From: Vreelandella andesensis
GTDB lineage: Bacteria > Pseudomonadota > Gammaproteobacteria > Pseudomonadales > Halomonadaceae
DNA length: 64,000 nt
Reading direction: 5' to 3'
Assembly: GCF_003989795.1 (NCBI RefSeq)
Contig: NZ_RZHG01000018.1
Location: 218,772-282,771 of the forward strand
A model generated the notes under the pieces. That model was not told where the DNA came from. It did no database searches and was given only the letters and a program-made list of their open reading frames with translations. Of this stretch, positions 23,577 to 53,223 are shown one piece after another (position 1 is the first letter of the stretch; each line of letters begins with the position of its first letter). A program made the position numbers and the translations under genes.

Positions 23577-25619
23577 CTATTCCTGCAGCGCTTTTTTAGT
23601 GATTTCAACACGATTACGCCCATTACGTTTAGCTCGGTACATCGCTGCATCGGCTCGGGCGATGATGGTTTTGCAACTGTCATCGGGTTGCCATACGGTG
23701 ACGCCGATGCTGACCGTTATCGGTTGAACCAGGCCATTTACCTCAAGCGTGGCCACTAGGCCACGCAATCGTTCAGCAAGTCCTTCTGCAGCTTCCATAT
23801 TGGAGTGGGTCGCCAATACCACAAACTCTTCCCCTCCCCAGCGCCCTAAATGATCACAACCACGCAGTGAGCCTTCCACCAGGCGGGCTAACGAAATCAA
23901 TACATCATCACCTACGCTATGGCCGAGCGTGTCATTGATCTGTTTAAAATGATCGACATCGAATAACAACACGGAAAAAGCGGCTCCATAACGCTTTGCC
24001 GCTACCAGCTCTGCATCAATGGCCTGCTCGATGCGGTAGCGGTTCCACACCTGAGTGAGCGGGTCAAAATGTGCCAACTGTTTTAACCGCTGATTCGCTT
24101 CTGCCAGGGCTTTGCGCTCGCGCTCCAGATGCATATTGAGCGTGCTGATCTCATAAGCAGAAATGGCCAGCGTTAAATCCTCCCCCAAATCCATTGCGGC
24201 TAGCCGCTCGACCCGTTGCCATGCTTCGCTTTTTCCTGTGACCTCTTCGCACCAGGCGTCAGAAGGCGACATCATCATGGGTGGCAAAGGTACTGAAGAA
24301 GGCTGCATTGCCCAGTAGAGCGTTTCGACTTGTTCAGGGCGGAAAAACATCAGCCAGCCGCGCTGGGTAGGGTCAGTAGGTAACGGCACCGCCAGCACAC
24401 CGCTCTGCTCCAAAAGATCTAAAGAAGACGTCAATGGCTCTTTGGCTGTCTCCTGAGTACACCAAGGCCCACTATGGACGTGGGCTTTTTCAATCCGCGT
24501 AACTAACTGACTGATCACTTCCGGTTTGGGCGTATTGCCTGATTGATAGACACTGCCTTTCACCCATAACGCAACACCATTAGCACGGAAAAGAGACCTC
24601 CATGTATCGGCATGCTCAGTAAACAGCTGATAGGGGCCCTGAGGCTTCAAACGGTTATTGGTTGAAAGCACCAGGCTATCTTGCACGCGCTGCAAATAAC
24701 GCGCTTCTTGTCGAGCTCTCAACAATAAAAGCCGCTGGGTGGCCATTTGTACCAAGGTACGCACCGCATCGCGCACGGGCGGCGTCACCGGGTGGGCCGA
24801 CGCCGAGTGGCAAAATAGTAGTCCCCATAGGCCGGCATCTCCCTGCATGGCTACGCTTAATGCACCGCGTACTCCAAGGCGTTGCAAATACTGCTGCCGT
24901 TCAGGGGCCGGTGCACGCAAGAAGCAATCGCTTACATCAACTGCCACTTCCTTCGGCAGCAAGTGCTCGCAAGGTGCCATCACGTCTTGGATAAGCCGCA
25001 CCGGATGACGCTCGTAGGAGCGCCGAAGTGCGATAGGAAAGTCCTTAGCAGGAAAGCGCTGCCCTAACAAGTCAGGCAAACGACCTACCGGCAACTCGGC
25101 ACCCGGCAAAGCCCGCTCTGTCGCTAACGACCCCGCCACGATTATCCCATGCCAATCACTATCGAAATGGCACACAGATACTCGATCATGCCCCGTCAAC
25201 TGTTGTACTGCTATCACCAGATAATCAAGCAATTCTTCTTGATGTGTCGCTTCCGCTAGACGCATCAAGCGTTCATTCACTGTGCCAAGCAAACGCTGCT
25301 TACCAAGCGTGTGTAAAGGTTCGATCTCGATCAACACATGCGAGCCTGCCCGGTAAGCATGTAGTTGGAAGCGGTTTGGTCGAGCGGGACATTTAAAAGT
25401 GAGCGGCCCAGGCAAACGCTGCTGACCTTGTAGCTCGTAGCGCACGCGCTGACCTAAACGCTTTCCTAGAACGCTGGATAGTGTTGGGAGGCGCCCGTTA
25501 GGAAGGCTTATACCCAGTAGTACAGCAACGTTACTACTCATTGCCTGTATGCGTCGGCTGTCGGCATCGAGCACCAGTAATGCACCGAACGACTGTAGTA
25601 GCGAGTGATGCTTCGACAC
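23577..25619 (-). CDS. Diguanylate cyclase with degenerate phytochrome (PAS-GAF-PHY) sensor
   Basis: 680 residues. Residues 1-105 match a phytochrome PAS domain (LLQSFGALLVLD), 125-300 a GAF domain (DRVSVCHFDSDWHG, RFPAKDFP, YLQRLGVRGALSVAM), and 320-470 a PHY domain (RGWLMFFRPEQVETLYWAM). A helix leads to GGDEF 515-680 (HFDPLTQVWNR, GRWGGEEFV), whose GGEEF active site is intact. The photosensory site is damaged. There is no cysteine before the PAS, the chromophore-contacting His in the GAF is Glu240, and the PRxSF tongue motif is absent, although Asp193 of the DIP-type motif is kept. It probably makes c-di-GMP in response to something other than bilin/light. It lies 23 bp after the motD-like gene, in the fliA operon direction. 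Confidence 0.88.
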   Translation of the reverse strand: MSKHHSLLQSFGALLVLDADSRRIQAMSSNVAVLLGISLPNGRLPTLSSVLGKRLGQRVRYELQGQQRLPGPLTFKCPARPNRFQLHAYRAGSHVLIEIEPLHTLGKQRLLGTVNERLMRLAEATHQEELLDYLVIAVQQLTGHDRVSVCHFDSDWHGIIVAGSLATERALPGAELPVGRLPDLLGQRFPAKDFPIALRRSYERHPVRLIQDVMAPCEHLLPKEVAVDVSDCFLRAPAPERQQYLQRLGVRGALSVAMQGDAGLWGLLFCHSASAHPVTPPVRDAVRTLVQMATQRLLLLRARQEARYLQRVQDSLVLSTNNRLKPQGPYQLFTEHADTWRSLFRANGVALWVKGSVYQSGNTPKPEVISQLVTRIEKAHVHSGPWCTQETAKEPLTSSLDLLEQSGVLAVPLPTDPTQRGWLMFFRPEQVETLYWAMQPSSVPLPPMMMSPSDAWCEEVTGKSEAWQRVERLAAMDLGEDLTLAISAYEISTLNMHLERERKALAEANQRLKQLAHFDPLTQVWNRYRIEQAIDAELVAAKRYGAAFSVLLFDVDHFKQINDTLGHSVGDDVLISLARLVEGSLRGCDHLGRWGGEEFVVLATHSNMEAAEGLAERLRGLVATLEVNGLVQPITVSIGVTVWQPDDSCKTIIARADAAMYRAKRNGRNRVEITKKALQE

Positions 25620-25642: not shown

Positions 25643-26314
25643 TTACCCCTCAGCCTGTTGCCTTAGCAACAGCTCGACGCGTCGGTTGGCAGACCGGCCT
25701 TCCGACGTCGCGTTACTTTCCATGGGTTGGGTATCGGCATAACCGACTGCCCGCATACGTGAAATAGCAACTCCCTGGCGCTCAAGATGCCGGACGACTG
25801 CAATAGCGCGTCCTGTCGAGAGCTCCCAATTCGAGGGGAAGCGTGAGGTGGCAATGGGAATATTATCCGTATGCCCCTCGACTGAAATTTGACCTTCAAA
25901 GGACGCTAGCACTGCCAAAAGGCTCTCCAACACATCTTGCCCCTCGGCCGTTAGCACGGCGTCGCCACTAGGGAAGAGCAAGCTGTCGTCGATGCGCAGC
26001 GTAACACCTTCTTCTCCTTGAGAGACACTCACCCCAGGGATATTAAGCTCAGCCATCCGCGGCTTCAGCCCACTGTGTCGAGGATGAATACCCGTTGCCA
26101 AGCTGGCCAACGGAAGCGAGGTGATAGCGCTTGCCGAGCGCATTCTATCGCTGTCAACGGCTTCCCCACCCCCCGGCGGCGTCATCGCAAGCAGTAGGAC
26201 AAACAGCGTGATTAGCAGCGTTAACACGTCTAAGTAGCTCGTTAGCCAGCCTTCATCGCCTTCGCCTGACCCAGCGGGCAGTTCCAGCACGTGGCGTGAA
26301 TCACGATCTAGCAT
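25643..26314 (-). CDS. motD: Second MotB-type stator protein (MotD-like)
   Basis: 223 residues with one N-terminal membrane span (GWLTSYLDVLTLLITLFVLLL) holding the proton-path aspartate Asp29. A linker follows, then an OmpA-type peptidoglycan-binding domain (SVEGHTDNIPI, NWELSTGRAIAVVRHL, VGYADTQP, NRRVELLL). It anchors a MotA-type ring to the cell wall in the flagellar motor. It differs clearly from the MotB at 45885-46805 (306 residues) and is closer in size and span sequence to MotD/PomB types. It follows the MotA-type gene by 4 bp and is downstream of fliA. Confidence 0.88.
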   Translation of the reverse strand: MLDRDSRHVLELPAGSGEGDEGWLTSYLDVLTLLITLFVLLLAMTPPGGGEAVDSDRMRSASAITSLPLASLATGIHPRHSGLKPRMAELNIPGVSVSQGEEGVTLRIDDSLLFPSGDAVLTAEGQDVLESLLAVLASFEGQISVEGHTDNIPIATSRFPSNWELSTGRAIAVVRHLERQGVAISRMRAVGYADTQPMESNATSEGRSANRRVELLLRQQAEG

Positions 26315-26318
26315 GACG

Positions 26319-27137
26319 CTACCCTTTTGCCGAAGAACTAGCGGTTGGCCGCGGTTTTATAGAGGCATCGCGGATCTCATCATGATAATTAGCCACAAAG
26401 GAATTTAGCGTTTCTTCAATAAATGAAGGCAGGCGCCGCTTGGTAATTAATGAAATACCTTCCAGCACCATGTTCATAGTAATCAAGCGTTCTTCCGTAC
26501 GCCGCTCTAACTTGACGGCAATCGGTTTGAACACCAGATTGGCGAGCAAAATACCGTAAAACGTTGTTAGCAGAGCCACCGCCATGCGCGGACCAATAAC
26601 GTCAAGATCACCGGCATCCATCACTTCCAGCATATTGACCAGCCCCACCAAGGTGCCGATCATACCAAACGCAGGTGCGTAAGTGGCCATGGTACGAAAT
26701 ATCTGCGCTTCGGCATGTTCCCGCGCTTTTAATCGCGCAATGCGCCAGCGCAACATATCGAAAATTTCGTCTTCTTTCGTGTTAGCAATCACCAGTTGAA
26801 TCCCAGTGCGTAAAAAGGGGTTACGCGTGTGCTCTAACGCCTTTTCAACCGCCCTGACATCGCCTTTAAACCATAGTCGCGACATTGAGACCAGTTCGTT
26901 AATATCGTCACGTACATAGGTATTTTCACGCCGAAACACCAACCCCACCAGGCGTACCACGCGTAGCACTTCTTTCAACGGATAACTAATAAAGGTAGCG
27001 GCCAAGGTGCCGGTAACCACGATGGCAAGCCCTGGCAAGTTGATAAAGCTTTCTGGCGACTCTGCAGTAAAAAACAGCACGCTTACCAGCAATAGCATGC
27101 TGGCAAAAATACCAATCAGCGTAGATGGGTTCATCAA
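26319..27137 (-). CDS. motC: Second MotA-type stator protein (MotC-like)
   Basis: 272 residues with four membrane spans and the MotA/ExbB-type segment MATYAPAFGMIGTLVGLVNML, followed by 'IGPRMAVALLTTFYGILLANLVF', both proton-channel helices. The large cytoplasmic loop between spans 2 and 3 carries the charged residues that touch FliG. It forms the ion channel with the MotD-like partner. A second, different MotA (289 residues) is encoded 20 kb away. It lies 37 bp downstream of fliA; in Pseudomonas motC/motD also lie near fliA and the che genes. Confidence 0.88.
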   Translation of the reverse strand: MMNPSTLIGIFASMLLLVSVLFFTAESPESFINLPGLAIVVTGTLAATFISYPLKEVLRVVRLVGLVFRRENTYVRDDINELVSMSRLWFKGDVRAVEKALEHTRNPFLRTGIQLVIANTKEDEIFDMLRWRIARLKAREHAEAQIFRTMATYAPAFGMIGTLVGLVNMLEVMDAGDLDVIGPRMAVALLTTFYGILLANLVFKPIAVKLERRTEERLITMNMVLEGISLITKRRLPSFIEETLNSFVANYHDEIRDASIKPRPTASSSAKG

Positions 27138-27174: not shown

Positions 27175-27876
27175 TTAGGTAGTGTCATATAAGCGAGCGC
27201 GAAGCCTGCTAATCGCTTGGCTGTGTAGCTGGGACACACGAGACTCGGTCACGCCAAGCACCGCCCCAACTTCTTTAAGGTTCAACTCTTCTTGGTAATA
27301 AAGTGCCATCAGCAGCTTTTCACGCTCAGGTAAGGCATCAATCGCATCAATTAACGACTGGCGCTGCTGTTGATCTAACAACTGATCAAAGGGCAGGGTA
27401 CTGGCGTCTTCTTTCGCCGGCTCAGCTCCTTCAGCCACCAGTTCTTCAAAGGGCAACAACTGACCACTGTTCGTATCATTAAGTAATTGCTGATACTCAC
27501 TGAGCGGCATCTCCAAGTCGCGTGCAATTTCACTTTCTTCCGGCGGGCGTCCCAGTTGCTGCTCCAGGCGGCGCACCGCATCATCTACCGCTCTGGCGGA
27601 ACGGCGCACACTGCGAGGCAACCAATCACGTGTGCGCAGCTCATCCATCATGGCACCGCGAATACGCTGGCTTGCAAAAGTAGCGAACGTTGCCCCCTGG
27701 GTCGCATCAAAGCGCCCCAGTGCTTCTAATAAACCCACCATGCCGGCTTGGATAAGATCATCTAACTCAATACTTGCGGGTAACCTTACCTGCAGCGTTA
27801 AGGCCTGACGTCTTACCAGTGGCATGTATTGGGTTAACAGCTCGCTCTGTTTAATTCTGCCTTGTGCTGTATACAT
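27175..27876 (-). CDS. fliA: Flagellar sigma factor sigma-28
   Basis: 233 residues with sigma regions 2 (LPASIELDDLIQAGMVGLLEAL), 3 (LPRSVRRSARAVDDAV ... GRPPEESEIA) and 4 (YYQEELNLKEVGAVLGVTESRVSQLHSQAISRLR). It directs transcription of late flagellar genes from TAAA-N15-GCCGATAA promoters; two such promoters are visible in this window (51328-51354, 53395-53421). It is placed after flhE, not next to fliC/fliZ as in enteric bacteria. No anti-sigma FlgM gene is in the window. Confidence 0.97.
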   Translation of the reverse strand: MYTAQGRIKQSELLTQYMPLVRRQALTLQVRLPASIELDDLIQAGMVGLLEALGRFDATQGATFATFASQRIRGAMMDELRTRDWLPRSVRRSARAVDDAVRRLEQQLGRPPEESEIARDLEMPLSEYQQLLNDTNSGQLLPFEELVAEGAEPAKEDASTLPFDQLLDQQQRQSLIDAIDALPEREKLLMALYYQEELNLKEVGAVLGVTESRVSQLHSQAISRLRARLYDTT

Positions 27877-27919: not shown

Positions 27920-28336
27920 TCATTGATAGTTCACAATCACTTGTAATTCCTGCACCCGCACCGGACGCTGGCCCGGCGTTAACGCAAAACGAAAGTGCAG
28001 CGGCCCCTTCACCTGTTTACCGGCTAACGCAGCGGTTGAGCCTCGCATAGCGGTCAAAAGCACGCACTGCTCCGGGTGGCATAGCCACGCACTAACCGGC
28101 GCGTTGACCGGCATTTGAAAGCGCCAATGAATACGCTTTATCACCGCATGCTCTACTTGAAGCCCTGCCGGAGGGTGAATGGGCTGACTACTAACAGCTC
28201 GGTCGCTCATCGCTACCAGCACGCTGGGCATCTCGGTACTCCAACTGCCAGTAGCCGCATAAGCACTCATTGTAATGGCGCTTAGTGCGACCATCAGTGC
28301 GCTTTTAAGCAACCTACCGACCTTGAAACAGCCCAT
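27920..28336 (-). CDS. flhE: Flagellar periplasmic protein FlhE
   Basis: 138 residues from ATG 28336; the frame extends to 28417, but only the shorter form begins with a normal signal peptide (MGCFKVGRLLKSALMVALSA to AYA). The mature part matches FlhE: 'GSWSTEMPSVLVAMSDRAV', 'HPPAGLQVEHAVIKRIHWRF', 'AWLCHPEQCVLL', 'GSTAAL' and the terminal 'LQVIVNYQ'. In enteric bacteria FlhE is encoded after flhA and prevents proton leakage through the flagellar export gate. Here flhF and an unknown gene separate it from flhA. No strong ribosome site is seen for either start. Confidence 0.85.
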   Translation of the reverse strand: MGCFKVGRLLKSALMVALSAITMSAYAATGSWSTEMPSVLVAMSDRAVSSQPIHPPAGLQVEHAVIKRIHWRFQMPVNAPVSAWLCHPEQCVLLTAMRGSTAALAGKQVKGPLHFRFALTPGQRPVRVQELQVIVNYQ

Positions 28337-28470
28337 TATGTTGAAACTTTTTGGGTAACAACCATGTTGCAATAATGCGTCTTGAAACCAGCGGGCATCG
28401 ACATTGTTGTTCCTCATAGAAGCGTTTATTAACTTCTGTTAAAACACAGCCATATTGCGTCAGGCTAGCG

Positions 28471-29013
28471 TCATCGCGCCAGCAGTAAAAGCTCTATGTC
28501 CAAATAATAACTGGCGGCTTCCCGCAAGTTATCGAGCAGTCCTCGGCGCGGCAAGTTAGGTTCGTGCAATGCTAACAGCTGCCTAGGGCCGCCATTTTCC
28601 TTAATTTGCCGAAGCGAGCGATACATCTGCGAAAAGGCATCGGCATCGCTATTAATCCATAGCGCCCAACGCGAAAAGCGGTCGTTCAGTTGGCCAAGAT
28701 TAGCGGCATCGCCACTGACAATATGAATCTCCCAATCGTCCGGATCGCCAGCCCAGCGCCGACCCAACGCTGACCACTGGGCTAAGCGCCCTTTTACTCT
28801 AGCCACCTGCAGATCTCCGCCGTTGGGCATGCCAATCACTACCAGCGGTTTTTGCGGCACAGAGGACAGCGTCGAAGGATCGGTCGGCGCTGTCAGTGGC
28901 TCAGCCGCTACTACGCCTTCCGCGGGCTCACTTTCTGCTGATTGCGTTTGATGCTGTTGGCGCTGTAAATCGGCCCACTTACGCAGGCCTGCTGCCTGAT
29001 CGTGGGCACTCAT
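28471..29013 (-). CDS. Unknown protein in the flhG position
   Basis: 180 residues, overlapping the flhF stop by 4 bp, in the place where flhG/fleN (a MinD-type ATPase) usually lies. No P-loop: no KGGVGKT and no other Walker motif. The first 55 or so residues are polar and Ala/Glu/Pro-rich. The C-terminal part (KPLVVIGMPNGGDLQVARVKG ... WEIHIVSGDAANLGQLNDRF ... EASYYLDIELLLLAR) looks like a compact alpha/beta domain. A degenerate MinD-like fold is possible but not shown. Coupling to FlhF suggests a partner of that GTPase. I do not recognise the family. Confidence 0.7.
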   Translation of the reverse strand: MSAHDQAAGLRKWADLQRQQHQTQSAESEPAEGVVAAEPLTAPTDPSTLSSVPQKPLVVIGMPNGGDLQVARVKGRLAQWSALGRRWAGDPDDWEIHIVSGDAANLGQLNDRFSRWALWINSDADAFSQMYRSLRQIKENGGPRQLLALHEPNLPRRGLLDNLREAASYYLDIELLLLAR

Positions 29014-31220
29014 ACCAGCCCCTCTCGGCTAACGCTGCTAAGTTGGCGAATAGCATCACGGGCCATAAACGCGTGGACAAGCGCACCTAGCATTGCCGTG
29101 TCGCGCCGCTTGCGAGTGGTTCCCAACAGCCTTAACAAATCAGAGCGCAGCGCTATCGCAGCAGCATCATTAGCAACGTCTAAGTGCACCGCCACTGCCG
29201 CGATACCGCTAGCCATCAATAAGCGTATCTCGGTGCTTACCTCGCCATCATCCGAAGCTTTCAACTGCTGCCAAGCACGTTTGGTAAGGCTAGACACCCC
29301 TTCACTTTGGAGCTGGATAACCAGAAGCGAACGCACGTCTACGCCTAATCGGGCAGGCGTTAACCAATAGCGACGTGCGATGCATTTGCTATTTTCAGGA
29401 TCACGAACCTCGCCGTACCATGCCAACAGTGAGGTACCGGCGGCATCCTCCACCGCCATATGGGTGTGCCATAGCTGCATTGTTTGGCCGCGAAAACGCA
29501 GGTCGGTGTGATGAGTGAGCGGGCTATCTGTGAACAGCTGACGCAGGGCATAGCGCTCGCCCTGGCAATATACCCGCTGACTGGCAGCGACTAGCGTGAC
29601 CCAAGTAAGGTGTTGAGCTTCTAACCACGCTAACGTGGCTGGGTCGGGAAGCGCGGGTAGCAGATGGACAGCGGCCCCCATCGATTCACCCTGACGCAAC
29701 AGCCGGGATTGCCAGCCAGCGGGTTGACGGTGCTGCAGGCTGGTTAGCGCAAGCAAACCGCCGTCTACATCTAACCCAATATCGGGCATTGACCAGTCAC
29801 AGCCCCGCTCATTACGGCGCGGATACCATGCCATGCCCAGCCCCTTACCCGCACAGGGCTCGCTAGCCAGTAGTGCATCCAGGCGCTTATCGTGCAGCAC
29901 CCCCGGTAAAGAGGCGATATCCCATACCGACTCTAGCGCTGAAAAACCGACAATTCTTTCACGTAGCCGTGTTAGCACAGAACTAAGGCGACGTCCTTGG
30001 CCCAGCACGTCTCGGGACCAGCGCGGCAAACTCACCGAGTGAGCCCCGGGCGGGCGGCCAGCGGCGGCGGAATCTCGCTCTTGGCCTAACGGAGTACTCA
30101 GGGCTTGATTAATCAGCGCGGCAGGGTCGGCAACCGCCATATCTTCGGGAACACGCTGCCCGTATGAACCAAATAACACACGCAGGCCATGACGCATAAC
30201 AATATCAAGCACTGGGGCTAAACGACCGGCTTCGTCTTGCTTGGTAATAATGCAGTCATTTATTTCAGCGCCCGCAGCCCGTGCCGCTTGGCGATACCGC
30301 AACACGACTTCTTCGAGCGTTTCAGGCTGGCTAGCAGCATTTAGCAGCAGCACTAATCGCACCGACGTTTGACCACCCTGTAAATGGGCGATTTGCTCAA
30401 TTACACGCTGGTCACGCTGGCTCATACCGACGGTGTCGATGATGACCCACTGTTTACCCTGCAGTCGTCCGACGAGTTCATCGATCGGCTGCTCGGCGTC
30501 TAAGGCATACATGGGGGTATCAAGCAGCCGGGCATAAATTCGCAGCTGTTCGTGGGCACCGATACGAAAGCTATCGGTAGTGACAAGGGCCACAGGGCGC
30601 GTGCCGTGGCGCATCACGAAACGCGCGGCTAGTTTCGCCGTGGTGGTGGTTTTTCCCACTCCCGTTGGCCCCACCAGCGCCACAATACCCGCTTGATCAA
30701 AAAAGCCGGTTTCTTCTTTCAGCACGGGTAACCGGGCCATTAACTGTCCACGAAGCCACTCCATGACGAGCGCGCTATCAGCCTCTGGCTGAGCCAACGA
30801 TGTCGGCAGCTCTGCCAACACTTCCTCGCTTAGCTCTTGGCTGAAGCCAACGCTGAGCAGTTGCTGGCGCAAACGGGAGTAGGAATCGTCAGCGGCTGCG
30901 GAGGTGGGCGCATCGGTAGTTGACTGCCGCTGGGAAAGCAGTTCCCGCATTTCCTGCATCTCGCGCAGCAAGCGCTCACTCATTTCCTGGAGCGGATCTG
31001 AATCTCGCGCTGGAAAAGCAACTTCAGAAGTAGGGCTCGATGGTGGAGGTGATGGGGGGGAAGGCTCAAAATGATCGACCGCTTCATCCGCCATCGCCAG
31101 TATTTCAACCCCCCCCTCGGTACGGCGATTGGCGACAATTAAAGCGTCATCGCCTAATGCTTCGCGCACTTGGCGCATCACATCGCGGCTGTTTGCTCCA
31201 ACAAATCGTCTCACGCTCAT
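29010..31220 (-). CDS. flhF: Flagellar GTPase FlhF with long C-terminal extension
   Basis: 736 residues, about 250-350 more than usual FlhF. Residues 1-45 are the FlhF B-domain start (RRFVGANSRDVMRQVREALG). Residues 46-115 are a Pro/Ser-rich linker, and 115-375 are the N and SRP-type G domains. These hold P-loop GPTGVGKTTTT (183-193), DTVG (262-265) and the specificity motif TKQDE (326-330). Residues 381-736 form an extra region of no family I know, with patches such as 'CDWSMPDIGLDVDGGLLALT' and 'HLTWVTLVAASQRVYCQGER'. FlhF normally places polar flagella with FlhG. Here FlhG is absent at the locus and FlhDC/FlhE are present. It follows flhA by 52 bp. Confidence 0.93.
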   Translation of the reverse strand: MSVRRFVGANSRDVMRQVREALGDDALIVANRRTEGGVEILAMADEAVDHFEPSPPSPPPSSPTSEVAFPARDSDPLQEMSERLLREMQEMRELLSQRQSTTDAPTSAAADDSYSRLRQQLLSVGFSQELSEEVLAELPTSLAQPEADSALVMEWLRGQLMARLPVLKEETGFFDQAGIVALVGPTGVGKTTTTAKLAARFVMRHGTRPVALVTTDSFRIGAHEQLRIYARLLDTPMYALDAEQPIDELVGRLQGKQWVIIDTVGMSQRDQRVIEQIAHLQGGQTSVRLVLLLNAASQPETLEEVVLRYRQAARAAGAEINDCIITKQDEAGRLAPVLDIVMRHGLRVLFGSYGQRVPEDMAVADPAALINQALSTPLGQERDSAAAGRPPGAHSVSLPRWSRDVLGQGRRLSSVLTRLRERIVGFSALESVWDIASLPGVLHDKRLDALLASEPCAGKGLGMAWYPRRNERGCDWSMPDIGLDVDGGLLALTSLQHRQPAGWQSRLLRQGESMGAAVHLLPALPDPATLAWLEAQHLTWVTLVAASQRVYCQGERYALRQLFTDSPLTHHTDLRFRGQTMQLWHTHMAVEDAAGTSLLAWYGEVRDPENSKCIARRYWLTPARLGVDVRSLLVIQLQSEGVSSLTKRAWQQLKASDDGEVSTEIRLLMASGIAAVAVHLDVANDAAAIALRSDLLRLLGTTRKRRDTAMLGALVHAFMARDAIRQLSSVSREGLV

Positions 31221-31272: not shown

Positions 31273-33357
31273 TCATGCCCGCCCTCCTACTACCGTGGTG
31301 ACTCGCAAGGTACGGTCGTCTGGTATTTCTGCCTGGGACATGACCACTAAATGACGCATGCGCCGACGCAAAAAGCGCGACAGCACCGCCCTCAGTGAGT
31401 GCTGCACAACCAGCACCGGCGCTTCGCCGCTACCTTCATGGCGCTCCAGGGCCTCTTGCGCCTGGGTCATGAGCGTCTCCGCAAGCCCTGGCTCCATGGC
31501 GCCGTTACCATTCATGGCCTGCATTAGTACTTGCTCTAACTGGGCATCAAGCCCAATCACATTGAGCGTTTCCTGGCCAGCGAACCACTGCTGGGTAATC
31601 GCACGCCCCAACGCCATGCGCACTAGTGCGGTCAGTTCGTTGGCATCTTTCTGCTGCCCAGCATGTTCTGCCAGGGTATCCAGCACCGAACGCATATCAC
31701 GTATCGAGACATCTTCATCCAGCAGGTTTTGCAGAATACGCTGCAATACGGTGAGCGAAATTGCTTTCGGCACCACCTCTTCGACTAGTGACTTTTGATC
31801 CTCACCCAGCTTATCGAGCAGCTTTTGTACTTCTTGCCGCCCCAGCATTTCCGGTGAGTGGCGATGCAGCAGGTGGTTTAAGTGCGTTGCAATGACCGTG
31901 CTGGCATCCACCACGGTATAACCGTACACCTGGGCATGTTCACGCTGGTTGGCATCAATCCAGATAGCGGGCAAACCAAAGGCGGGGTCTTGGGTTGGCG
32001 TTCCCTGTAATTCTCCCGATACCTGACCTGGGTCGATTGCCAGCCATTTACCCGGCTGAGCCTCAGCGCGACCAATTTCCGCCCCCTTCATAGAAAGTAC
32101 GTAGGTATTCGGAGGCAGCTCTAGGTTGTCGCGTATGTGCACCACGGGCGGTAAAAACCCAACTTCTTGGGCAAACTTCTTGCGCACACTTTTAATGCGC
32201 CCCAGCAACTCGCCCTTTTGGCGGGAATCCACCAGGGGAATAAGGCGATGCCCTACCTCAAGCCCCAACGTATCTACCAGTTGCACGTCTTCCCAGCTGG
32301 CCTCTGGCGACTCTTGTTGGGGCAGCGGCGCTGCTGATATCTCCTCTTTTACCAGCGCCTGCTCTTTCTGGCGGATCAAATACCAAGCCAAGCCCGCCAA
32401 CAGCGCGGTAAAAATCAGAAACACCAAATTGGGCATTCCTGGCACCATGCCCAGCAACCCCATCACCATCGCAGAAAGGATCATGACCTGAGGGTTAATA
32501 AACAGTTGGCTAATCATTTGCTGACCGACATCTTGGTCAGTATTGACCCGCGATACAGTGACACCAGCGGCGGTTGAGATTACCAGCGCGGGGATCTGAG
32601 CCACCAGGCCATCGCCAATCGTTAGCAACGTATAGGTACGGGCCGCGTCAGAAAAGCCCATATCGTGCTGCATCATACCGATCAGCAACCCACCAATAAT
32701 ATTGACCACCATAATGACCAGGCCAGCCATGGCATCGCCACGTACAAACTTACTCGCACCATCCATGGAGCCATAAAAATCTGCTTCCTGGGCGACTTCA
32801 GCACGCCGTTTTTTAGCGTCTTCTTCACCAATCATGCCAGCGTTTAAGTCCGCATCAATCGCCATCTGCTTGCCAGGCATTGCATCCAACATGAAGCGGG
32901 CACCTACTTCGGCAATACGACCAGCCCCCTTGGTAATCACCATGAAGTTAATGATGACAAGGATCAAAAAGACCACCAAGCCAACAGCAAAATTACCGCC
33001 GACCAGAAAGGTACCAAACGCCTCAATGACTTTGCCGGCGGCATCTCCGCCTTGATGGCCTTCCATAAGCACAACACGGGTCGAGGCCACATTGAGTGAT
33101 AGTCGCAATAGCGTGGTAAATAACAGCACCGCAGGAAAAGCGGCAAAGTCGAGTGGCTTTTGCGCAAACATGCTGACCAACAGCACCATAATGGCCAACG
33201 CGATATTAAACGTGAACAGTAAATCGAGCGCGAAAGGCGGCAAGGGCAGAATCATCATGCCCAAGATCATCAGAATCAGCAGCGGCCCTGCGAGCAACTG
33301 CATGCGCACACCGCCCATCCAATCGCGCTGATTGATCAATTGGCTTAAGCCTTTCAT
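31273..33357 (-). CDS. flhA: Flagellar export gate protein FlhA
   Basis: 694 residues with about eight N-terminal membrane spans. The FHIPEP-type signature region is seen as 'TRVVLMEGHQGGDAAGKVIEAFG ... GGNFAVGLVVFLILVIINFMVITKGAGRIAEVGARF', followed by 'DADLNAGMIGEEDAKKRR'. The C-terminal cytosolic domain begins near residue 340 and binds chaperone-substrate complexes. E. coli FlhA is 692 residues. It overlaps flhB by 4 bp. Confidence 0.98.
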   Translation of the reverse strand: MKGLSQLINQRDWMGGVRMQLLAGPLLILMILGMMILPLPPFALDLLFTFNIALAIMVLLVSMFAQKPLDFAAFPAVLLFTTLLRLSLNVASTRVVLMEGHQGGDAAGKVIEAFGTFLVGGNFAVGLVVFLILVIINFMVITKGAGRIAEVGARFMLDAMPGKQMAIDADLNAGMIGEEDAKKRRAEVAQEADFYGSMDGASKFVRGDAMAGLVIMVVNIIGGLLIGMMQHDMGFSDAARTYTLLTIGDGLVAQIPALVISTAAGVTVSRVNTDQDVGQQMISQLFINPQVMILSAMVMGLLGMVPGMPNLVFLIFTALLAGLAWYLIRQKEQALVKEEISAAPLPQQESPEASWEDVQLVDTLGLEVGHRLIPLVDSRQKGELLGRIKSVRKKFAQEVGFLPPVVHIRDNLELPPNTYVLSMKGAEIGRAEAQPGKWLAIDPGQVSGELQGTPTQDPAFGLPAIWIDANQREHAQVYGYTVVDASTVIATHLNHLLHRHSPEMLGRQEVQKLLDKLGEDQKSLVEEVVPKAISLTVLQRILQNLLDEDVSIRDMRSVLDTLAEHAGQQKDANELTALVRMALGRAITQQWFAGQETLNVIGLDAQLEQVLMQAMNGNGAMEPGLAETLMTQAQEALERHEGSGEAPVLVVQHSLRAVLSRFLRRRMRHLVVMSQAEIPDDRTLRVTTVVGGRA

Positions 33358-45884: not shown

Positions 45885-46805
45885 TCATTCGCTTTCATCG
45901 CTCTGTGGCTCGCTTTGCGGCGACGCTTCTGCAGGTGCGTCTTCATCGGGCAATGGGTTATCAAGCCCCATAACGCCGGGGTTCCGAATCGCCTCAGCGA
46001 TTTCTGGCAATAAGACGACAAGCTCAATGCGGCGATTAACGGGATCGGTCGGCGCAGTGTCAGGCAACCTGACACGATCAGCAAAGCCCGATACGCGTAG
46101 CAGTTGATCTGGATCAAGCCCGCCAGCCACTAATTCACGCCGAGAAGCATTGGCTCGGTCGTTGGAAAGCTCCCAGTTGCTGTAACCTCGGTAACCACCC
46201 GCATAGGGCACACTGTCGGTGTGCCCGCTAATACTTAAGACATTGGGCAATTCGTTGAGTAGCGGTGCCATCGTGCGTAACAAGTTGCGCATGTAAGGGG
46301 CTACTTGATTACTGCCTAGCTCAAACATGGGCCGCTGTTCCGTATCGAGCAGTTGAATGCGCAGCCCTTCGCGAGTTAAATCAAAGCGCATTTGACTGCG
46401 CAGCTGGCGCAGCTCCGGGTCTTGCTCAATGGCTCGCTCAATGCGTTCTTGCAAATCATTAAAGAAACGCCGCTCCTGAGCGCTGGGTCGGCTATGTTGA
46501 AGAACATCAATCCGTGCGCGCTCGCCGTCGCTGTGAGTAGGATCTGGGCCACCGCCCGGAATCACCTGGGTGCTTCCAGACCGGTCACCACTAGTCATTG
46601 CTGTTATTAATGGGGTGCTGAAATACTCTGCAACGCTGCGCCGGGTTTCATCATCGGAAACACTTAAAATCCACATCACCAGAAACAGCGCCATCAGGGC
46701 TGTCATGAAGTCCGCAAGGGCAATCTTCCACGCACCGCCATGGTGGGCATGCACCACTTTTTTGCGCCGAATAATAATCGGACGCTTATCGCCCCCCTTA
46801 CTCAT
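45885..46805 (-). CDS. motB: Flagellar motor stator protein MotB
   Basis: 306 residues, the enteric MotB length (308). The positively charged N-terminus (RRKKVVHAHHGGAWK) comes before the span IALADFMTALMALFLVMWIL with proton-carrier Asp32. The OmpA-type peptidoglycan domain is 'LSISGHTDSVPYAGG', 'NWELSNDRANASRREL', 'VSGFADRVRL' and 'NRRIELVVLLPE'. The span sequence is of the proton-type MotB rather than sodium PomB. It overlaps motA by 4 bp. Confidence 0.97.
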   Translation of the reverse strand: MSKGGDKRPIIIRRKKVVHAHHGGAWKIALADFMTALMALFLVMWILSVSDDETRRSVAEYFSTPLITAMTSGDRSGSTQVIPGGGPDPTHSDGERARIDVLQHSRPSAQERRFFNDLQERIERAIEQDPELRQLRSQMRFDLTREGLRIQLLDTEQRPMFELGSNQVAPYMRNLLRTMAPLLNELPNVLSISGHTDSVPYAGGYRGYSNWELSNDRANASRRELVAGGLDPDQLLRVSGFADRVRLPDTAPTDPVNRRIELVVLLPEIAEAIRNPGVMGLDNPLPDEDAPAEASPQSEPQSDESE

Positions 46806-47671
46806 GCATTACCGCCCTTTTTAGCGTCGCGCACATACTCTTCTAGCTCTGAAAAACTGGGGCGCTCGGTGCTATGTAATGCTTTACGACCAAATTCAAC
46901 CGCTAACTGGGGAGCATATCCATGCAGGCTAGCCAGCAGCGTAACGCGGATACACTGCAGCATTTTTTCTGCTTCTTTAGCTTGCCGTTCGGCATAGCTC
47001 GCGATAGGGCTAATAAACCCGTAGCCCATCAAAATACCCAGGAAGGTACCCACTAACGCCATCGCAATCATTTGCCCCATTTGGTCAGGGCTGGCATCCG
47101 CATAGGTCAGTGCTTTAATAACCCCCATAACCGCAGCTACGATACCGAACGCCGGCATTGCATCACCTACTTTGGCAATCGCATCGATGGGAATATGGGC
47201 TTCTTGCTCAAATACTTCGATTTCGTGGAGCATTAGCTCATCGATTTCCATCGGCTCCATGCCGCCGCTCACCATCAACCGAAGATAATCGGTTAAAAAA
47301 TCCATAATATGAGGGTCTGCAAGCACCGTGGGGTGTTCTTGGAACAACGGACTTTCCTGAGGATTATCGATATCGCGCTCGATCCCCAGCATCCCCTCAC
47401 GGCGCACTTTGGAAAGAATTTTGTATTGAAGCGCCATTAACTCCATATACAAGGCTTTATTGTATTTTTTGGTTCGTTTAAGCCGGGGAAGTATTTTAAA
47501 CGTGGCTTTAATCGCTTTGCCGTTGTTTGCGGCAATAAAGGCACCAACGCCAGCACCGCCAATGATCAGCAGCTCCAGGGGTTGATACAGGGGGCCTAAG
47601 CTACCGCCTGCCAACACATAACCGCCAAAGACAGATAGCAATACGACCAAATAACCCAGAGGAATCAGCAC
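46802..47671 (-). CDS. motA: Flagellar motor stator protein MotA
   Basis: 289 residues starting at GTG 47671 (AAGGA 9 nt upstream). Four spans, with 'DAMPAFGIVAAVMGVIKALTY' and 'GQMIAMALVGTFLGILMGYGFISPIA' for spans 3 and 4, and the FliG-contacting cytoplasmic loop between spans 2 and 3. It begins the motA-motB-cheA-cheW series downstream of flhDC. The 230-bp spacer 47672-47901 should hold its promoter; no sigma-28 match was found there, only an imperfect GCAGATAA. Confidence 0.97.
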   Translation of the reverse strand: MLIPLGYLVVLLSVFGGYVLAGGSLGPLYQPLELLIIGGAGVGAFIAANNGKAIKATFKILPRLKRTKKYNKALYMELMALQYKILSKVRREGMLGIERDIDNPQESPLFQEHPTVLADPHIMDFLTDYLRLMVSGGMEPMEIDELMLHEIEVFEQEAHIPIDAIAKVGDAMPAFGIVAAVMGVIKALTYADASPDQMGQMIAMALVGTFLGILMGYGFISPIASYAERQAKEAEKMLQCIRVTLLASLHGYAPQLAVEFGRKALHSTERPSFSELEEYVRDAKKGGNA

Positions 47672-47901: not shown

Positions 47902-48426
47902 TCAACACCGCGCCTTGCGCGTTTTCCCGGCTCGCGAAGGCGGCTGGCAAATACCGCAAACGTAATCATGGGCGGGGCTATGGGCATGCGCGACGAAGTG
48001 TCCTTCACAGCGCGTACACGTGTTGAGCTGCAGCAGGTCACTTTCAAAAAACCGTACCAGCGTCCACGCGCGAGTGAGCCCCAGTACCGGCTCAACGTTT
48101 TCAAGATTTATCTGCTCTTCGTACAAGCGATAGGCTTTGACAAAAGCATCAATACGCTCGCAGCACGTATTGTTTTGTATGCTGTTATAAATGTTATAAA
48201 ACAGCGACGAATGCACGTTTGGCAGCCACGTTACGAACCAATCTGCTGAAAAGGGCAGCATTCCCTTGGGCGGCGACATCCCACGCACTTCCTTGTACAA
48301 CTTAATCAAACGCGTGCGACTCAGGTCTGTCTCTGTCTCCAATACTTGTAAACGTGCACCTAATTCAATCAGCTCTATGGCCAGCTGTACTTGGTGCATT
48401 TCATCGACCAAGCTTTTCTGGCTCAC
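47902..48426 (-). CDS. flhC: Flagellar master regulator subunit FlhC
   Basis: 174 residues with the zinc-binding cysteine set of FlhC at the C-terminal side (LNTCTRCEGHFV and YVCGICQPP). The N-terminal region 'QLAIELIELGARLQVLETETDLSRTRLIKLYKEVRG' is typical. With FlhD it forms the FlhD4C2 activator of class II flagellar genes. E. coli FlhC is 192 residues. The ATG overlaps the flhD stop (ATGA). Confidence 0.96.
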   Translation of the reverse strand: MSQKSLVDEMHQVQLAIELIELGARLQVLETETDLSRTRLIKLYKEVRGMSPPKGMLPFSADWFVTWLPNVHSSLFYNIYNSIQNNTCCERIDAFVKAYRLYEEQINLENVEPVLGLTRAWTLVRFFESDLLQLNTCTRCEGHFVAHAHSPAHDYVCGICQPPSRAGKTRKARC

Positions 48427-48755
48427 TCCGACTCTCCTACTGGCAATTCCTCAAACGCTTCGCGGGCCGATAACAATGAGGCATGAAGCCCCGAAAGCCC
48501 TTGATCCCTAGGATTCTGGGTAATGACGCGCAGCTGATGGACGCTCGTTTGGCTAAACCTGCATATCAACTGGTTGTTACGTGCCAATTTTGTTAACTGC
48601 CGAGCGTTTAACGACACGAGCAAGTCGGCAAGCTCGCTGTCTATTTTTAAGCGAAACATCGCCGCCTCACGGTCTTCAACCAACAGGCGTTGCGCAAGAA
48701 GTAAATACGCTAAATTAATTTCTTGAATTTCATCGAGAAAGCTTGTTTGACTCAT
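48423..48755 (-). CDS. flhD: Flagellar master regulator subunit FlhD
   Basis: 110 residues, all-helical FlhD: 'FLDEIQEINLAYLLLAQRLLVEDREAAMFRLKIDSELADLLVSLNARQLTKLA'. It dimerises and binds FlhC; the heterohexamer recruits RNA polymerase at fliA, flhB, fliE/fliF and similar promoters. The 103-bp spacer to the next gene includes a TATGACGTCATA palindrome, possibly a regulator site. The presence of FlhDC places this flagellar system in the enteric regulatory class. Confidence 0.96.
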   Translation of the reverse strand: MSQTSFLDEIQEINLAYLLLAQRLLVEDREAAMFRLKIDSELADLLVSLNARQLTKLARNNQLICRFSQTSVHQLRVITQNPRDQGLSGLHASLLSAREAFEELPVGESE

Positions 48756-48858: not shown

Positions 48859-49152
48859 CTACTGACGCTCTTGACGAGAAGTCAACCCTACTTCGGATAA
48901 CTCAAAGACCCATACCAGCAGTTCCGCCACGACCTGATATAAACTGGCAGGGATCTCGGCATCGAGATCTAACTGCATAAGCAGTGCCACAAGCTCAGGC
49001 GCATCGTGCACATAAATCCCTTGGCGCTTGGCCTCTGTCATAATCCGTTCCGCCAACTCGCCATAACCTTTAGCGATCACCCGTGGCGCTTGGTCTTTAT
49101 TTTGATAGGCCAGCGCGACGGCTTGCCGACGATGCTCACCCGAGGTCGCCAT
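48859..49152 (-). CDS. Stand-alone FlhB C-terminal-domain protein (FlhX-like)
   Basis: About 97 residues; ATG 49152 (or 49155) is chosen because GGAG lies 7 nt upstream, and the frame overlaps the previous gene by 17 bp. The sequence 'HRRQAVALAYQNKDQAPRVIAKGYGELAERI ... DAPELVALLMQLDLDAEIPASLYQVVAELLVWVFEL' matches the part of FlhB that follows the NPTH cleavage site. It has no membrane part and no NPTH. Such proteins can stand in for the cleaved FlhB-CC fragment. It is the last gene of the fliS-fliT-FliK-like operon. Confidence 0.88.
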   Translation of the reverse strand: MATSGEHRRQAVALAYQNKDQAPRVIAKGYGELAERIMTEAKRQGIYVHDAPELVALLMQLDLDAEIPASLYQVVAELLVWVFELSEVGLTSRQERQ

Positions 49153-50374
49153 CATGGCTCTCCACGCTGGCATAGTGCGCCTTTACCTGAACACTGCGAA
49201 AATCTAGCGCTTGCAGGCGATTTTCTAAACGCTCGAGCCCCTGCTCCAGAGACTGATACGTTGACGCAGCATCCGTCGTCAGATCAATGCTTAACACTGA
49301 CTTGGAAAGCCTGAGCGAGGCACTAAATGCCCCCAAATTAGGCACGTCGAGCTGCATGTCCGACCGCCAGTCTTCATCACCGCCGGCCTCTTGCTGGGTG
49401 CTTTCTCGCTCATCCTCTCGGGTGGGCATATGAATAACTAATGCCATAAAAATACCGGCCCAAACATCGCCTTCCCAGCGGACAACAGGCATCACAAGCA
49501 TATCGAGCTGCTGGCGTACCAGACTCTGCAAGCTTTCATGGACAATCTCGCGACCACCGCGCACCAGCGAACTGTCGTCAATTGCCCTCGCACTGGCCAT
49601 ATCAATGCTGGCAGAAGCGTTCGAAGAAACGCTCGCAGAGACATTGGCAGGCACACTTTCACGCTGCGCACCTGCTGTGAGCAGGTTATCCATTGACATC
49701 GGCAGAGCAGGTCGCATCACGCCAGCGTGGCCACTTGAAACAGGTACAAGCAGCGAGTTCGGCAATATAGCAACGTTTGTATTACTTGCCCCCACGGCGG
49801 CATTCGGTGCCAGAGAAGACATTACAAACGTGGCAACACTGGCAGGCGGTATAGGTCGCGGGCCCGGCTGCATCTGCGGTTCTCGCAGCAACTGTTGTTG
49901 TGAAGATGCTCCTTGAAACCAGCGCTTTAAATGAGATTCGTAAAACAGGCCGCTGTCACGGATGCTGCTTTCTAGCCGATTCGCCAGCGCAGGCGCAGAG
50001 GGTGTTTCTTGCAACCCCATCAATGGCGCTTGGGGACGTATCGTCGCGGGCGGTGCGGGAAAACGCAGCAATACATCAGCGATAGTACGCGCAGCTGGGC
50101 TAAAGTGAGTTTGCGTCGAGCCTGGTGGCGCGTTGGTGGCCTCTCCCTTCGCGGGCAGCCGCTGGCCATCCAGCGAAGAGGGAAGACGCCGAAGATCATT
50201 GAGCGGTGATGATAGAGGGCGCCCATCCAAGCTTGAATCGCCGTGCAGCGCACGTGGTCCTTCGCCCGGAGGTATCGGCTGCACCGGCGCATTGAGCGGG
50301 CGTTGGGAGAGCTCGCCCTGGCGCCCAAGCACCTGATGCATGAGCGTATCGATAAGTGGCGTGATGCCACTCAC
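49136..50374 (-). CDS. Second FliK-like hook-length/export-switch protein
   Basis: 412 residues from GTG 50374, which overlaps the fliT stop (GTGA) and has AGGAGAAGGGGG upstream. Pro/Ser/Ala-rich disordered N-terminal two thirds; the C-terminal 110 residues are compact (SDMQLDVPNLGAFSASLRLSKSVLSIDLTTDAASTYQSLEQGLERLENRL region), similar in layout to FliK C-terminal domains. It is co-encoded with the FlhB-like domain protein, the known FliK partner. It is distinct from the main FliK at 60091-62025. The FliK assignment rests on architecture and context rather than a strict motif. Confidence 0.7.
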   Translation of the reverse strand: MSGITPLIDTLMHQVLGRQGELSQRPLNAPVQPIPPGEGPRALHGDSSLDGRPLSSPLNDLRRLPSSLDGQRLPAKGEATNAPPGSTQTHFSPAARTIADVLLRFPAPPATIRPQAPLMGLQETPSAPALANRLESSIRDSGLFYESHLKRWFQGASSQQQLLREPQMQPGPRPIPPASVATFVMSSLAPNAAVGASNTNVAILPNSLLVPVSSGHAGVMRPALPMSMDNLLTAGAQRESVPANVSASVSSNASASIDMASARAIDDSSLVRGGREIVHESLQSLVRQQLDMLVMPVVRWEGDVWAGIFMALVIHMPTREDERESTQQEAGGDEDWRSDMQLDVPNLGAFSASLRLSKSVLSIDLTTDAASTYQSLEQGLERLENRLQALDFRSVQVKAHYASVESHDGDLG

Positions 50375-51424: not shown

Positions 51425-53116
51425 TTACGTCGACACCGCCACTTCTCGGGTTGGTTTACCCAGCCGTTCTAAAACGTCACCGCGCAGCGTATTGCCCAAG
51501 GTGTCGCGCATAGGCGATTCTGCCTGATGAGCCAACGTGACTTCAGCTGGCGAGCCCTGCTCGTCAAGGCGAACAATCCAGGCCATCTGTTCACTGGAAA
51601 AATACGCAAGCGACCCCACCGGCAGTGTCTTAAAATGCTTGATGTAGCGTTTGGTCCAGCGGGGATCAAATTGATGAGGATGGCTCAGCAAATGACGATA
51701 AATTTGCTGCACTGTTTTAGCGGGTCGGTCAGCTCGATCGCGCCGCATCGCTTCTACCACATCGACAACAGCACTTGCCTTTGCCAACTCGTTGATATCA
51801 TTACCTGTTAAGCCGTCAGGGTAGCCGCTGCCGTCCAACCGCTCATTAATACCGCCAATCACCGCCTGGGCAACAGCAGCAGAAAGCCATTGGCAGTGCT
51901 GAAGGCGATCTAACAGCAATGACACATGCTCACTCATGGCTTGACGGTGAGTGGCTTCGAATTGCGGCGCTTTAAACAGTATTTGCGGAACCAGTGCTTT
52001 ACCTAGATCGTGCACTAAACCACTTGCCACAATCGCTTTGCGTACGTCATGGGGCATATTAGCGCCAACCAAATCGAGTAAATGCACCGCGACTGCAATT
52101 CCATGACGAACCAACAGCGGCTCAGGTGACAGGCAACGCGTCGCAAACAGCAGCGCTTCACGGTCTTCCTCATGAAGCAACAAAAGACGATCTGCATTGC
52201 GTGACAGCTGGCGGGAGTCGATATCGCTACCCTGTTGCAAAAGCAGCAGTTGAGCATCCAGGTAAGCCGCTACTTTCACCAAGCGCCGCGCCATAGGCGT
52301 TGCATATCGCCGAACATCACGCCGCCCGACATGCTCATTCCCTAGCGTACGCTTGCCGGGCTGCTCGAATAGCGGTGACGGCTGACGATCGTCCTGCGCT
52401 TCTTTTTTATAGCGAGCGGCTTCGCGCTCTATTTCACAAACAAAATACCAAATTTGCCGCTCTTGCTCGGAAGTGCAATTGGTAAAACGGAAGCCAACGC
52501 GCAGCAAATGTCGTTCAGCATCGGTTTTTTGATGGCGAGGCACTCCCTGTACTTCAAAATAGGTGCCATCTGGAAACGTAAAGGCAAGCGTTAACGCCAG
52601 ATCAGCGTCGGCCAACACACCACTAGCAGTCAGCGGTAACTCTATTTGACAGCCGTCTTGGGAAAGGTCGCGTAGCTCACCATGAACCCCTTCACCGCTT
52701 TCACCACGTACAAAGGAAGGCACAACCATCCCTAAACGCAGTTCAGCGCGAAACGATTCACGGCGTTGAAGCACTTCCAGAGTAACGGGGTAGTCGCTGC
52801 AGCATAAAAAGCGCCCCCCTGCATGGCGGGTTTCGGTTAACGATAGAAGTGGCGTGCGCACTACCTTGCCCTGGGACTGACCGCGCAGGAAAAACGATTC
52901 ACCTTGCTGCAAACGGCTTAATAGATGATCGACTGAGGATAAGTCCATCACTAACGTCTTACCGGCATGCTGTTCCATTAACACGATGGGCTCTGGGCGC
53001 GCTTGCGCAGAGGTCAAGCAAAGCGACACGCCTCCCCCTTCGATCATGGTATTTAAAAGGGAGCTTACTGCCGTTGGGCTAGTAACACTTTCATACTCAT
53101 CTTGTTGGACTGACAT
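51425..53116 (-). CDS. YcgR-like PilZ protein fused to a degenerate HD-GYP domain
   Basis: 563 residues from ATG 53116; the frame opens at GTG 53155. Residues about 25-115 resemble the YcgR N-terminal domain (GESFFLRGQSQGKVV). A PilZ domain follows with c-di-GMP motifs RESFR (119-123) and DLSQDG (150-155). After a linker comes an HD-GYP domain (about 330-500) with RHGIAVAVHLL, GLVHDLGKALVP (HD 369-370), a later His397, and INERLDGSGYPDGL. The normal HHE before DGxGYP is INE here (423-425), so two metal-binding histidines are lost and phosphodiesterase activity is doubtful. It is probably a c-di-GMP-responsive motility protein. It is located between fliS and flaG. Confidence 0.88.
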   Translation of the reverse strand: MSVQQDEYESVTSPTAVSSLLNTMIEGGGVSLCLTSAQARPEPIVLMEQHAGKTLVMDLSSVDHLLSRLQQGESFFLRGQSQGKVVRTPLLSLTETRHAGGRFLCCSDYPVTLEVLQRRESFRAELRLGMVVPSFVRGESGEGVHGELRDLSQDGCQIELPLTASGVLADADLALTLAFTFPDGTYFEVQGVPRHQKTDAERHLLRVGFRFTNCTSEQERQIWYFVCEIEREAARYKKEAQDDRQPSPLFEQPGKRTLGNEHVGRRDVRRYATPMARRLVKVAAYLDAQLLLLQQGSDIDSRQLSRNADRLLLLHEEDREALLFATRCLSPEPLLVRHGIAVAVHLLDLVGANMPHDVRKAIVASGLVHDLGKALVPQILFKAPQFEATHRQAMSEHVSLLLDRLQHCQWLSAAVAQAVIGGINERLDGSGYPDGLTGNDINELAKASAVVDVVEAMRRDRADRPAKTVQQIYRHLLSHPHQFDPRWTKRYIKHFKTLPVGSLAYFSSEQMAWIVRLDEQGSPAEVTLAHQAESPMRDTLGNTLRGDVLERLGKPTREVAVST

Positions 53117-53223
53117 TCTCGTCTCGCTCACTACCACGTTGTTATTACGCGCCACGTTGTTACGTACACACCCAAAAGCGACAGAGCATATCAGAAGCCC
53201 CTAGGCTGCCGTATGCCTACTAA

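Follow-up and report, generated by a model that had tools for sequence, protein, structure and literature searches.

In a 64,000-nucleotide stretch of the Vreelandella andesensis genome (contig NZ_RZHG01000018.1, positions 218,772 to 282,771; hereafter 'the window'), the flagellar GTPase FlhF carries a C-terminal domain (C-domain) that is predicted to adopt the fold of Tn5 transposase, and the gene overlapping the end of flhF very probably encodes a reduced FlhG, here called mini-FlhG, in which the enhancer helix is kept and the P-loop is lost. FlhF and FlhG constitute a well-studied switch for flagellar site and number. Taking both proteins together, we lean, with somewhat more confidence than doubt, towards a reading in which the extension of FlhF is a catalytically dead, exapted binding module with a Tn5-type transposase fold, and the reduced FlhG triggers the FlhF GTPase in trans.

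The original prediction for this DNA described an unbroken flhF frame running to residue 736, a GTPase of the signal recognition particle (SRP) type ending near residue 375 and, beyond it, what may be a new domain on a flagellar GTPase. All three points are supported: the frame (29010..31220, minus strand) runs through 736 codons without a stop, the Pfam SRP54 match spans residues 179-374, and the region 29010-30080, which corresponds to residues 381-736 plus the stop, contains a domain that folds separately in the model, is under purifying selection and was met in the searches made solely inside FlhF frames, lying within flhF at the loci that were read. The GTPase motifs are intact (GPTGVGKTTTTAKLA, DSFRIGA, DTVGM, TKQDE and GQRVPED, read in sequence and alignment); residues 1-110 have a net charge of -7, and the linker within them is weakly conserved. 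The further claim that no family can be named for the extension stands for Pfam (best E 0.95 for the window; none better than E 0.06 in 28 members scanned, and no transposase family among them) and needs qualifying for NCBIfam, where NF011312 (PRK14723, an FlhF model of 768 positions) covers the C-domain at model positions 537-756 (E 3.2e-8). Whole FlhF, matched also over residues 1-377, reaches 442.2 bits against this model, below the curated cut-off of 951. Because NF011312 spans the region, the long FlhF is already in the database as a protein family with no domain named, and in this weak sense the extension is a known one. Sequence searches of PHROGs and of PDB sequences with the C-domain gave nothing convincing, and tblastn found no match to it in plasmid and phage records. 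A match to DicD/YjdC (NCBIfam, E 0.006) was dropped as weak; no such structure is among the six significant fold matches described below.

Conservation in relatives, on which the original prediction had made its case depend, is extensive. A single-sequence search found the extension in 30 of 58 genomes (the window's own included), all in the window's genus and, the window itself apart, with identities of 60-72%; in a contig scan of genomes the closest C-domains were those of V. alkaliphila, 90% identical, and V. venusta, 89% identical. A profile of 19 genus-level sequences detected the C-domain in 169 of 275 family genomes (Halomonas/Vreelandella group), covering 13 of 24 genera; of 369 class genomes it picked out 3, each of them a member of the family. 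With a broader profile it was found in 24 of 390 order genomes, nine of them outside the family (seven in f222, two in f219), and it is open and conserved across three families of one order. Among 185 class genomes, 90 have an FlhF above the cut-off; the frame measures 737 codons in the window and 380-605 codons in all the others. The ratio of nonsynonymous to synonymous substitution rates (dN/dS) shows that the C-domain is under purifying selection, with values of 0.054-0.106 in 6 of 9 pairs with unsaturated synonymous divergence; in the three closest pairs it is 0.099, 0.082 and 0.095, beside 0.036-0.053 for the NG domain and 0.145-0.22 for the linker. These values bear on whether the extension could be a decaying or neutral remnant of a transposon insertion, which we regard as very improbable: the C-domain does evolve faster than the GTPase core (dN/dS of about 0.1, compared with about 0.02), and part of it is unmatched in three loci (L135-L137), but its open frame in three families, its range of dN/dS and its near-invariant residues are at odds with decay.

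Structure prediction and Foldseek, which had been proposed as checks on the extension, gave a confident model and a consistent set of matches. The AlphaFold2 model of the C-domain, built from 54 sequences (predicted local distance difference test 91.1, predicted template modelling score 0.89), has three helices, an alpha/beta core, four long strands and then long helices, in that order. Foldseek against the PDB returned six chains at E <= 1e-3, all of them Tn5 transposase or its inhibitor, with a best value of 2.8e-7. In VIA-align, chain 1b7e reached Z 14.7 over 285 of 347 residues at 4.6 Å and the other five Tn5 chains Z 11.3-12.4; beyond Tn5, the next values were 6.8 for the piggyBat transposase and at most 5.7 for OXA beta-lactamases, while Argonaute, EndoV and similar proteins stayed under 5. 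The match to Tn5 continues from the core through the strands into the C-terminal helices. A viral structure library held no match at E <= 1e-3; among the 50 matches listed, an IS4 family transposase was second by E-value and had the highest probability, 0.63. We regard the Tn5-like fold of the C-domain as well supported on a predicted model.

The C-domain is likely to be catalytically dead, as judged from alignment columns, with the conserved acidic triad absent. The most acidic columns of 31 diverse C-domains (E430, E609 and D722) do not exceed 87%, whereas in 18 Tn5-type transposases, fragments among them, the columns D84, D181 and E324 (L262 numbering) are acidic at 92%, 100% and 100%. An alignment of L262 to the Tn5 chain gives E 1.7e-41, and we take these three residues to be the Tn5 catalytic residues D97, D188 and E326. 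The C-domain of the window has an isoelectric point (pI) of 9.2, compared with 4.6 and 5.2 for the other parts of FlhF, and the net charge is positive in 27 of 31 members. As a separate observation, contig C8 of the window's own genome holds a shortened Tn5-type transposase gene (L261) with a 267-codon frame.

The original prediction had also pointed to an overlapping gene of no known kind directly after flhF. The overlap is real (4 bases; 30 of 30 genus loci have a start positioned in this way), but the gene can be given a name: it is very probably a reduced FlhG with an FlhF-stimulating type of helix. According to a review, flhG sits directly downstream of flhF, and the N-terminal enhancer helix of FlhG contains a DQAxxLR motif whose glutamine stimulates the FlhF GTPase (PMC12826062). 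Mini-FlhG begins MSAHDQAAGLRKW, and D5, Q6, A7, G9, L10 and R11 are invariant in an alignment of 49 sequences, made up of the window's and 48 of 63 complete frames; left out were a 42-residue frame (L157), a 101-residue frame (L162) and the shortened or cut L193 and L188. In its model a linker of low prediction quality joins the helix to a Rossmann-like core. With the helix removed, the core can be aligned to the latter half of canonical FlhG (HHalign E 0.0049, with the decoys run at 0.12 or above), and 0 of 100 shuffles reach this score. In 23 copies the length ranges from 131 to 296 residues. The same review describes a C-terminal membrane-targeting sequence in FlhG (PMC12826062); in the window's mini-FlhG just 3 residues follow the final strand of the model, and such a sequence was not recognised there. 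A P-loop pattern in the mini-FlhG of L179 was rejected as a match caused by a linker repeat.

The type of FlhG differs between loci with and without the C-domain. Among 129 C-domain loci, drawn from sets that overlap in species, a P-loop FlhG occurs in 0 and DQAxxL[RK] in 124. By comparison, 60 class genomes lacking the C-domain were examined, and in 57 a P-loop FlhG lies close to flhF; [DS]QAxx[LM][RK] can be recognised in 40 of the 57. The 60 are part of the 89 with FlhF above the cut-off (the window's excluded), and absence of the C-domain was judged by frame length and the 19-sequence profile. In two of the 60 (L341 and L342), neither a P-loop FlhG nor a DQA motif was found near flhF. Canonical FlhG in the class also starts with DQAAGLR, and none of the MinD/ParA-like loci of the window's genome (L037-L053), as far as examined, carries DQAxxLR. 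In one class genome (G164, L257), flhF is followed by a protein of about 250 residues with DQAAGLR but no P-loop; its ATP site was lost either independently or as an earlier stage.

We propose that a normal B-NG FlhF gained a Tn5-type transposase-fold domain long ago, that this domain would then have lost the conserved catalytic acids, and that selection may keep it as a non-catalytic binding module. Mini-FlhG, for its part, would have lost the MinD-type ATP-binding site and kept the DQAxGLR helix. FlhF could still alternate between a GTP-bound dimer and a monomer, with mini-FlhG supplying the stimulating helix; because this helix is kept, GTP hydrolysis by FlhF could still be triggered in trans, uncoupled from the ATP and membrane cycle of FlhG. 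That the helix of mini-FlhG stimulates the FlhF GTPase is suggested by analogy with FlhG. The mostly basic C-domain may give FlhF a new anchor or partner, either nucleoid DNA or a basal-body protein, and this contact would replace cues supplied elsewhere by FlhG and polar landmarks; for the C-domain we infer a regulatory or localisation role. In a more specific version, which is possible though doubtful, FlhF captured a Tn5-type transposase as a DNA or nucleoid anchor, flagellar placement or expression would be read from the chromosome in this FlhDC-controlled group, and FlhG would have been pared down to a small core bearing a GTPase-activating helix.

Several observations weigh against this proposal, beginning with the fold and its origin. 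The Tn5-like fold derives from a predicted model, and Foldseek template modelling scores (TM-scores) are about 0.4 with large root-mean-square deviations, so parts of the C-domain model are shifted relative to Tn5. Sequence profiles give no support for homology: HHalign of the C-domain with Tn5-type transposases is not significant (E 0.51 with 8 sequences, 0.41 with 18), a reversed C-domain profile beats the true one against transposases (E 0.097), and 5 of 99 column shuffles match the score. This lack of significant similarity would also suit convergence, with an RNase H-like domain of different ancestry arriving at the layout of Tn5, and Argonaute, EndoV and NurA, other RNase H-like proteins, do appear among the weaker VIA matches. 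Nevertheless, Z is 14.7 over 285 of 347 residues for Tn5 as against 6.8 for the second transposase and less than 5 for other RNase H-like proteins, and the match takes in the core, strands and C-terminal helices; we consider convergence unlikely and descent from a transposase probable.

A second set of points concerns what the C-domain binds. Its net charge is just +1 to +5 in many members and negative in two. The Tn5 transposase fold binds DNA and also dimerises, and the same ancestry could have led to a platform for protein-protein contact or dimerisation, with the C-ring, FlhA or FlhF itself as partner and no nucleic acid contact. The small charges are in keeping with such a platform, as is the fact that the near-invariant residues are largely Trp, Leu, Gly and Pro, as expected for a core or a protein surface; against it stand the resemblance to a DNA-binding fold, the pI of 9.2 beside acidic B and NG parts and the predominance of positive net charge (27 of 31 members). 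We treat the platform as a serious alternative that falls short of even likelihood. As to the partner alone, nucleic acid is a reasonable guess, and a protein is nearly as likely.

The identity of mini-FlhG can be questioned on similar grounds. Its best Foldseek match is a flavodoxin, and in VIA a CheY-like protein (Z 7.1) practically ties with FlhG (Z 7.2), in a range that can be generic. Single-sequence searches gave no Pfam or NCBIfam match, and a PDB sequence search with the mini-FlhG profile returned nothing. All this would suit an unrelated Rossmann-like protein that happens to have a similar N-terminal helix. Yet the DQAAGLR start is shared with canonical FlhG of the class, the gene occupies the flhG position, HHalign of the core alone favours FlhG above all decoys run, and L257 offers a longer P-loop-less DQAAGLR protein at the equivalent position, and we think an unrelated protein quite improbable.

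Finally, not every relative conforms. Of 11 family genomes without a C-domain match that were examined, nine lack an FlhF above the cut-off, and the other two have a 746-codon FlhF frame with a tail alignable to the C-domain. Mini-FlhG was not found in 5 of the 129 C-domain loci (L123 and L124 of g300, L135-L137 of g333) and so appears dispensable in some lineages. In L123 and L124, where it was sought between flhF and flhE, the GTPase motifs are divergent but present when aligned (DTHRVGG, DTVGV, SKTDE and GQNITEH). In L135-L137, from order family f222, the FlhF P-loop is kept but the GTPase has lost its second motif and TKxDE, and an flhE-like frame comes next; the first third of the C-domain is unmatched by the profile and the remainder matched. 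Helix loss accompanies GTPase decay or drift, in two lineages at most, which fits a working FlhF/mini-FlhG pair, and the retention of most of the C-domain in L135-L137 despite an eroded GTPase fits a separate role for that domain. At a further locus (L143; genome G925, family f219), flhF is broken into two frames (326 codons and 388 codons) and the frame for mini-FlhG is cut short, through either assembly error or decay.

Coordinates of flhF, mini-FlhG and neighbouring flagellar genes in the window
Feature	Position	Strand	Basis
flhF, 736 aa, long form	29010..31220	-	Open frame; TIGR03499 FlhF 227.2 bits (cut-off 174.15)
FlhF residues 1-110, N-terminal B part and acidic linker	30891..31220	-	TIGR03499 matches from residue 1
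FlhF residues 111-374, NG domain (SRP-type GTPase)	30099..30890	-	Pfam SRP54 179-374, E 1.2e-29
FlhF residues 400-735, C-terminal domain with predicted Tn5 transposase fold	29016..30023	-	AlphaFold2 pLDDT 91.1; Foldseek and VIA matches to Tn5; family-wide conservation
C-domain N-terminal three-helix part, residues 400-452	29865..30023	-	Model helices 11-33, 37-47, 51-63
C-domain alpha/beta core and long beta strands, residues 462-622	29355..29837	-	Model; conserved acidic catalytic triad absent (31-sequence columns)
C-domain C-terminal long helices, residues 623-735	29016..29354	-	Model helices 234-268, 274-293, 297-310, 317-346
Reduced FlhG (mini-FlhG), 180 aa, no P-loop	28471..29013	-	
mini-FlhG helix, residues 4-26, with DQAAGLRKW (FlhG enhancer-helix motif DQAxxLR)	28936..29004	-	Invariant residues; helix in model
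Rossmann-like core of mini-FlhG, residues 55-177	28483..28851	-	Model; HHalign with canonical FlhG E 0.0049
flhE	27920..28417	-	Pfam PF06366 E 1.7e-18
fliA-type sigma factor gene, downstream	27175..27876	-	Sigma70 regions 2-4
flhA, upstream neighbour of flhF	31273..33357	-	Pfam FHIPEP E 8e-272
flhD and flhC, master regulator genes of the cluster	47902..48755	-	Pfam FlhD E 1.5e-30, FlhC E 4.8e-87

On the minus strand the gene order is cheZ, flhB, flhA, flhF, the 180-residue gene, flhE, the fliA-type sigma factor gene and a motA/motB-like pair, and flhD and flhC lie about 17 kb upstream of flhF on the same strand. The cluster contains two separate motA/motB-like stator pairs (25643-27137 and 45885-47671, minus strand) and a gene for a PilZ and HD domain protein (51425-53155, minus strand). 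A small gene at 48859-49173 on the minus strand matches the C-terminal part of FlhB alone (Pfam PF01312 positions 262-335). A phytochrome-like protein (PAS_2, GAF and PHY) with a GGDEF domain is encoded next to the flagellar genes at 23577-25619 on the minus strand.

More broadly, the window presents a variant of the FlhF/FlhG system whose architecture looks new. Both parts of the switch are remodelled, FlhG by the loss of its ATPase site and the FlhF GTPase by the gain of a predicted transposase-fold domain. No description of the FlhF extension, its fold or the reduced FlhG was found among the open-licence papers listed by the searches. The body text of the review mentions neither an FlhF extension nor an ATPase-less FlhG, gives FlhF as B-domain, linker and NG domain, and regards FlhF/FlhG action outside monotrichous bacteria as largely open (PMC12826062). 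If the proposal is right, the pair would be a natural system in which stimulation of the GTPase is uncoupled from the ATP cycle. It may also mark a stage between FlhF/FlhG systems and the flagellar system of enteric bacteria, where neither gene is present, and it would give a conserved example, from bacteria, of organelle assembly making use of an exapted transposase fold.

Set beside known systems, the window's FlhF shares with the SRP-type GTPase FlhF the B part, the NG domain, the GTPase motifs and the place after flhA, whereas it has about 340 extra residues after the G domain, the 89 other class FlhF frames being shorter. NF011312 likewise represents a long FlhF, although the window's protein scores below its cut-off and its model assigns the extra region no domain name. 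Mini-FlhG has in common with FlhG/FleN/YlxH, the MinD-type ATPases, the position after flhF, the DQAxxLR helix and a core aligning with the second half of FlhG, but measures 131-296 residues in the 23 copies, is without Walker A and ends just after the last strand of its model. With Tn5 transposase and its inhibitor, of the IS4-type DDE (Asp-Asp-Glu) class, the C-domain model shares the overall fold; in contrast to the transposase, the C-domain has neither the conserved acidic triad nor significant sequence similarity, and it is a fixed part of FlhF rather than a mobile gene.

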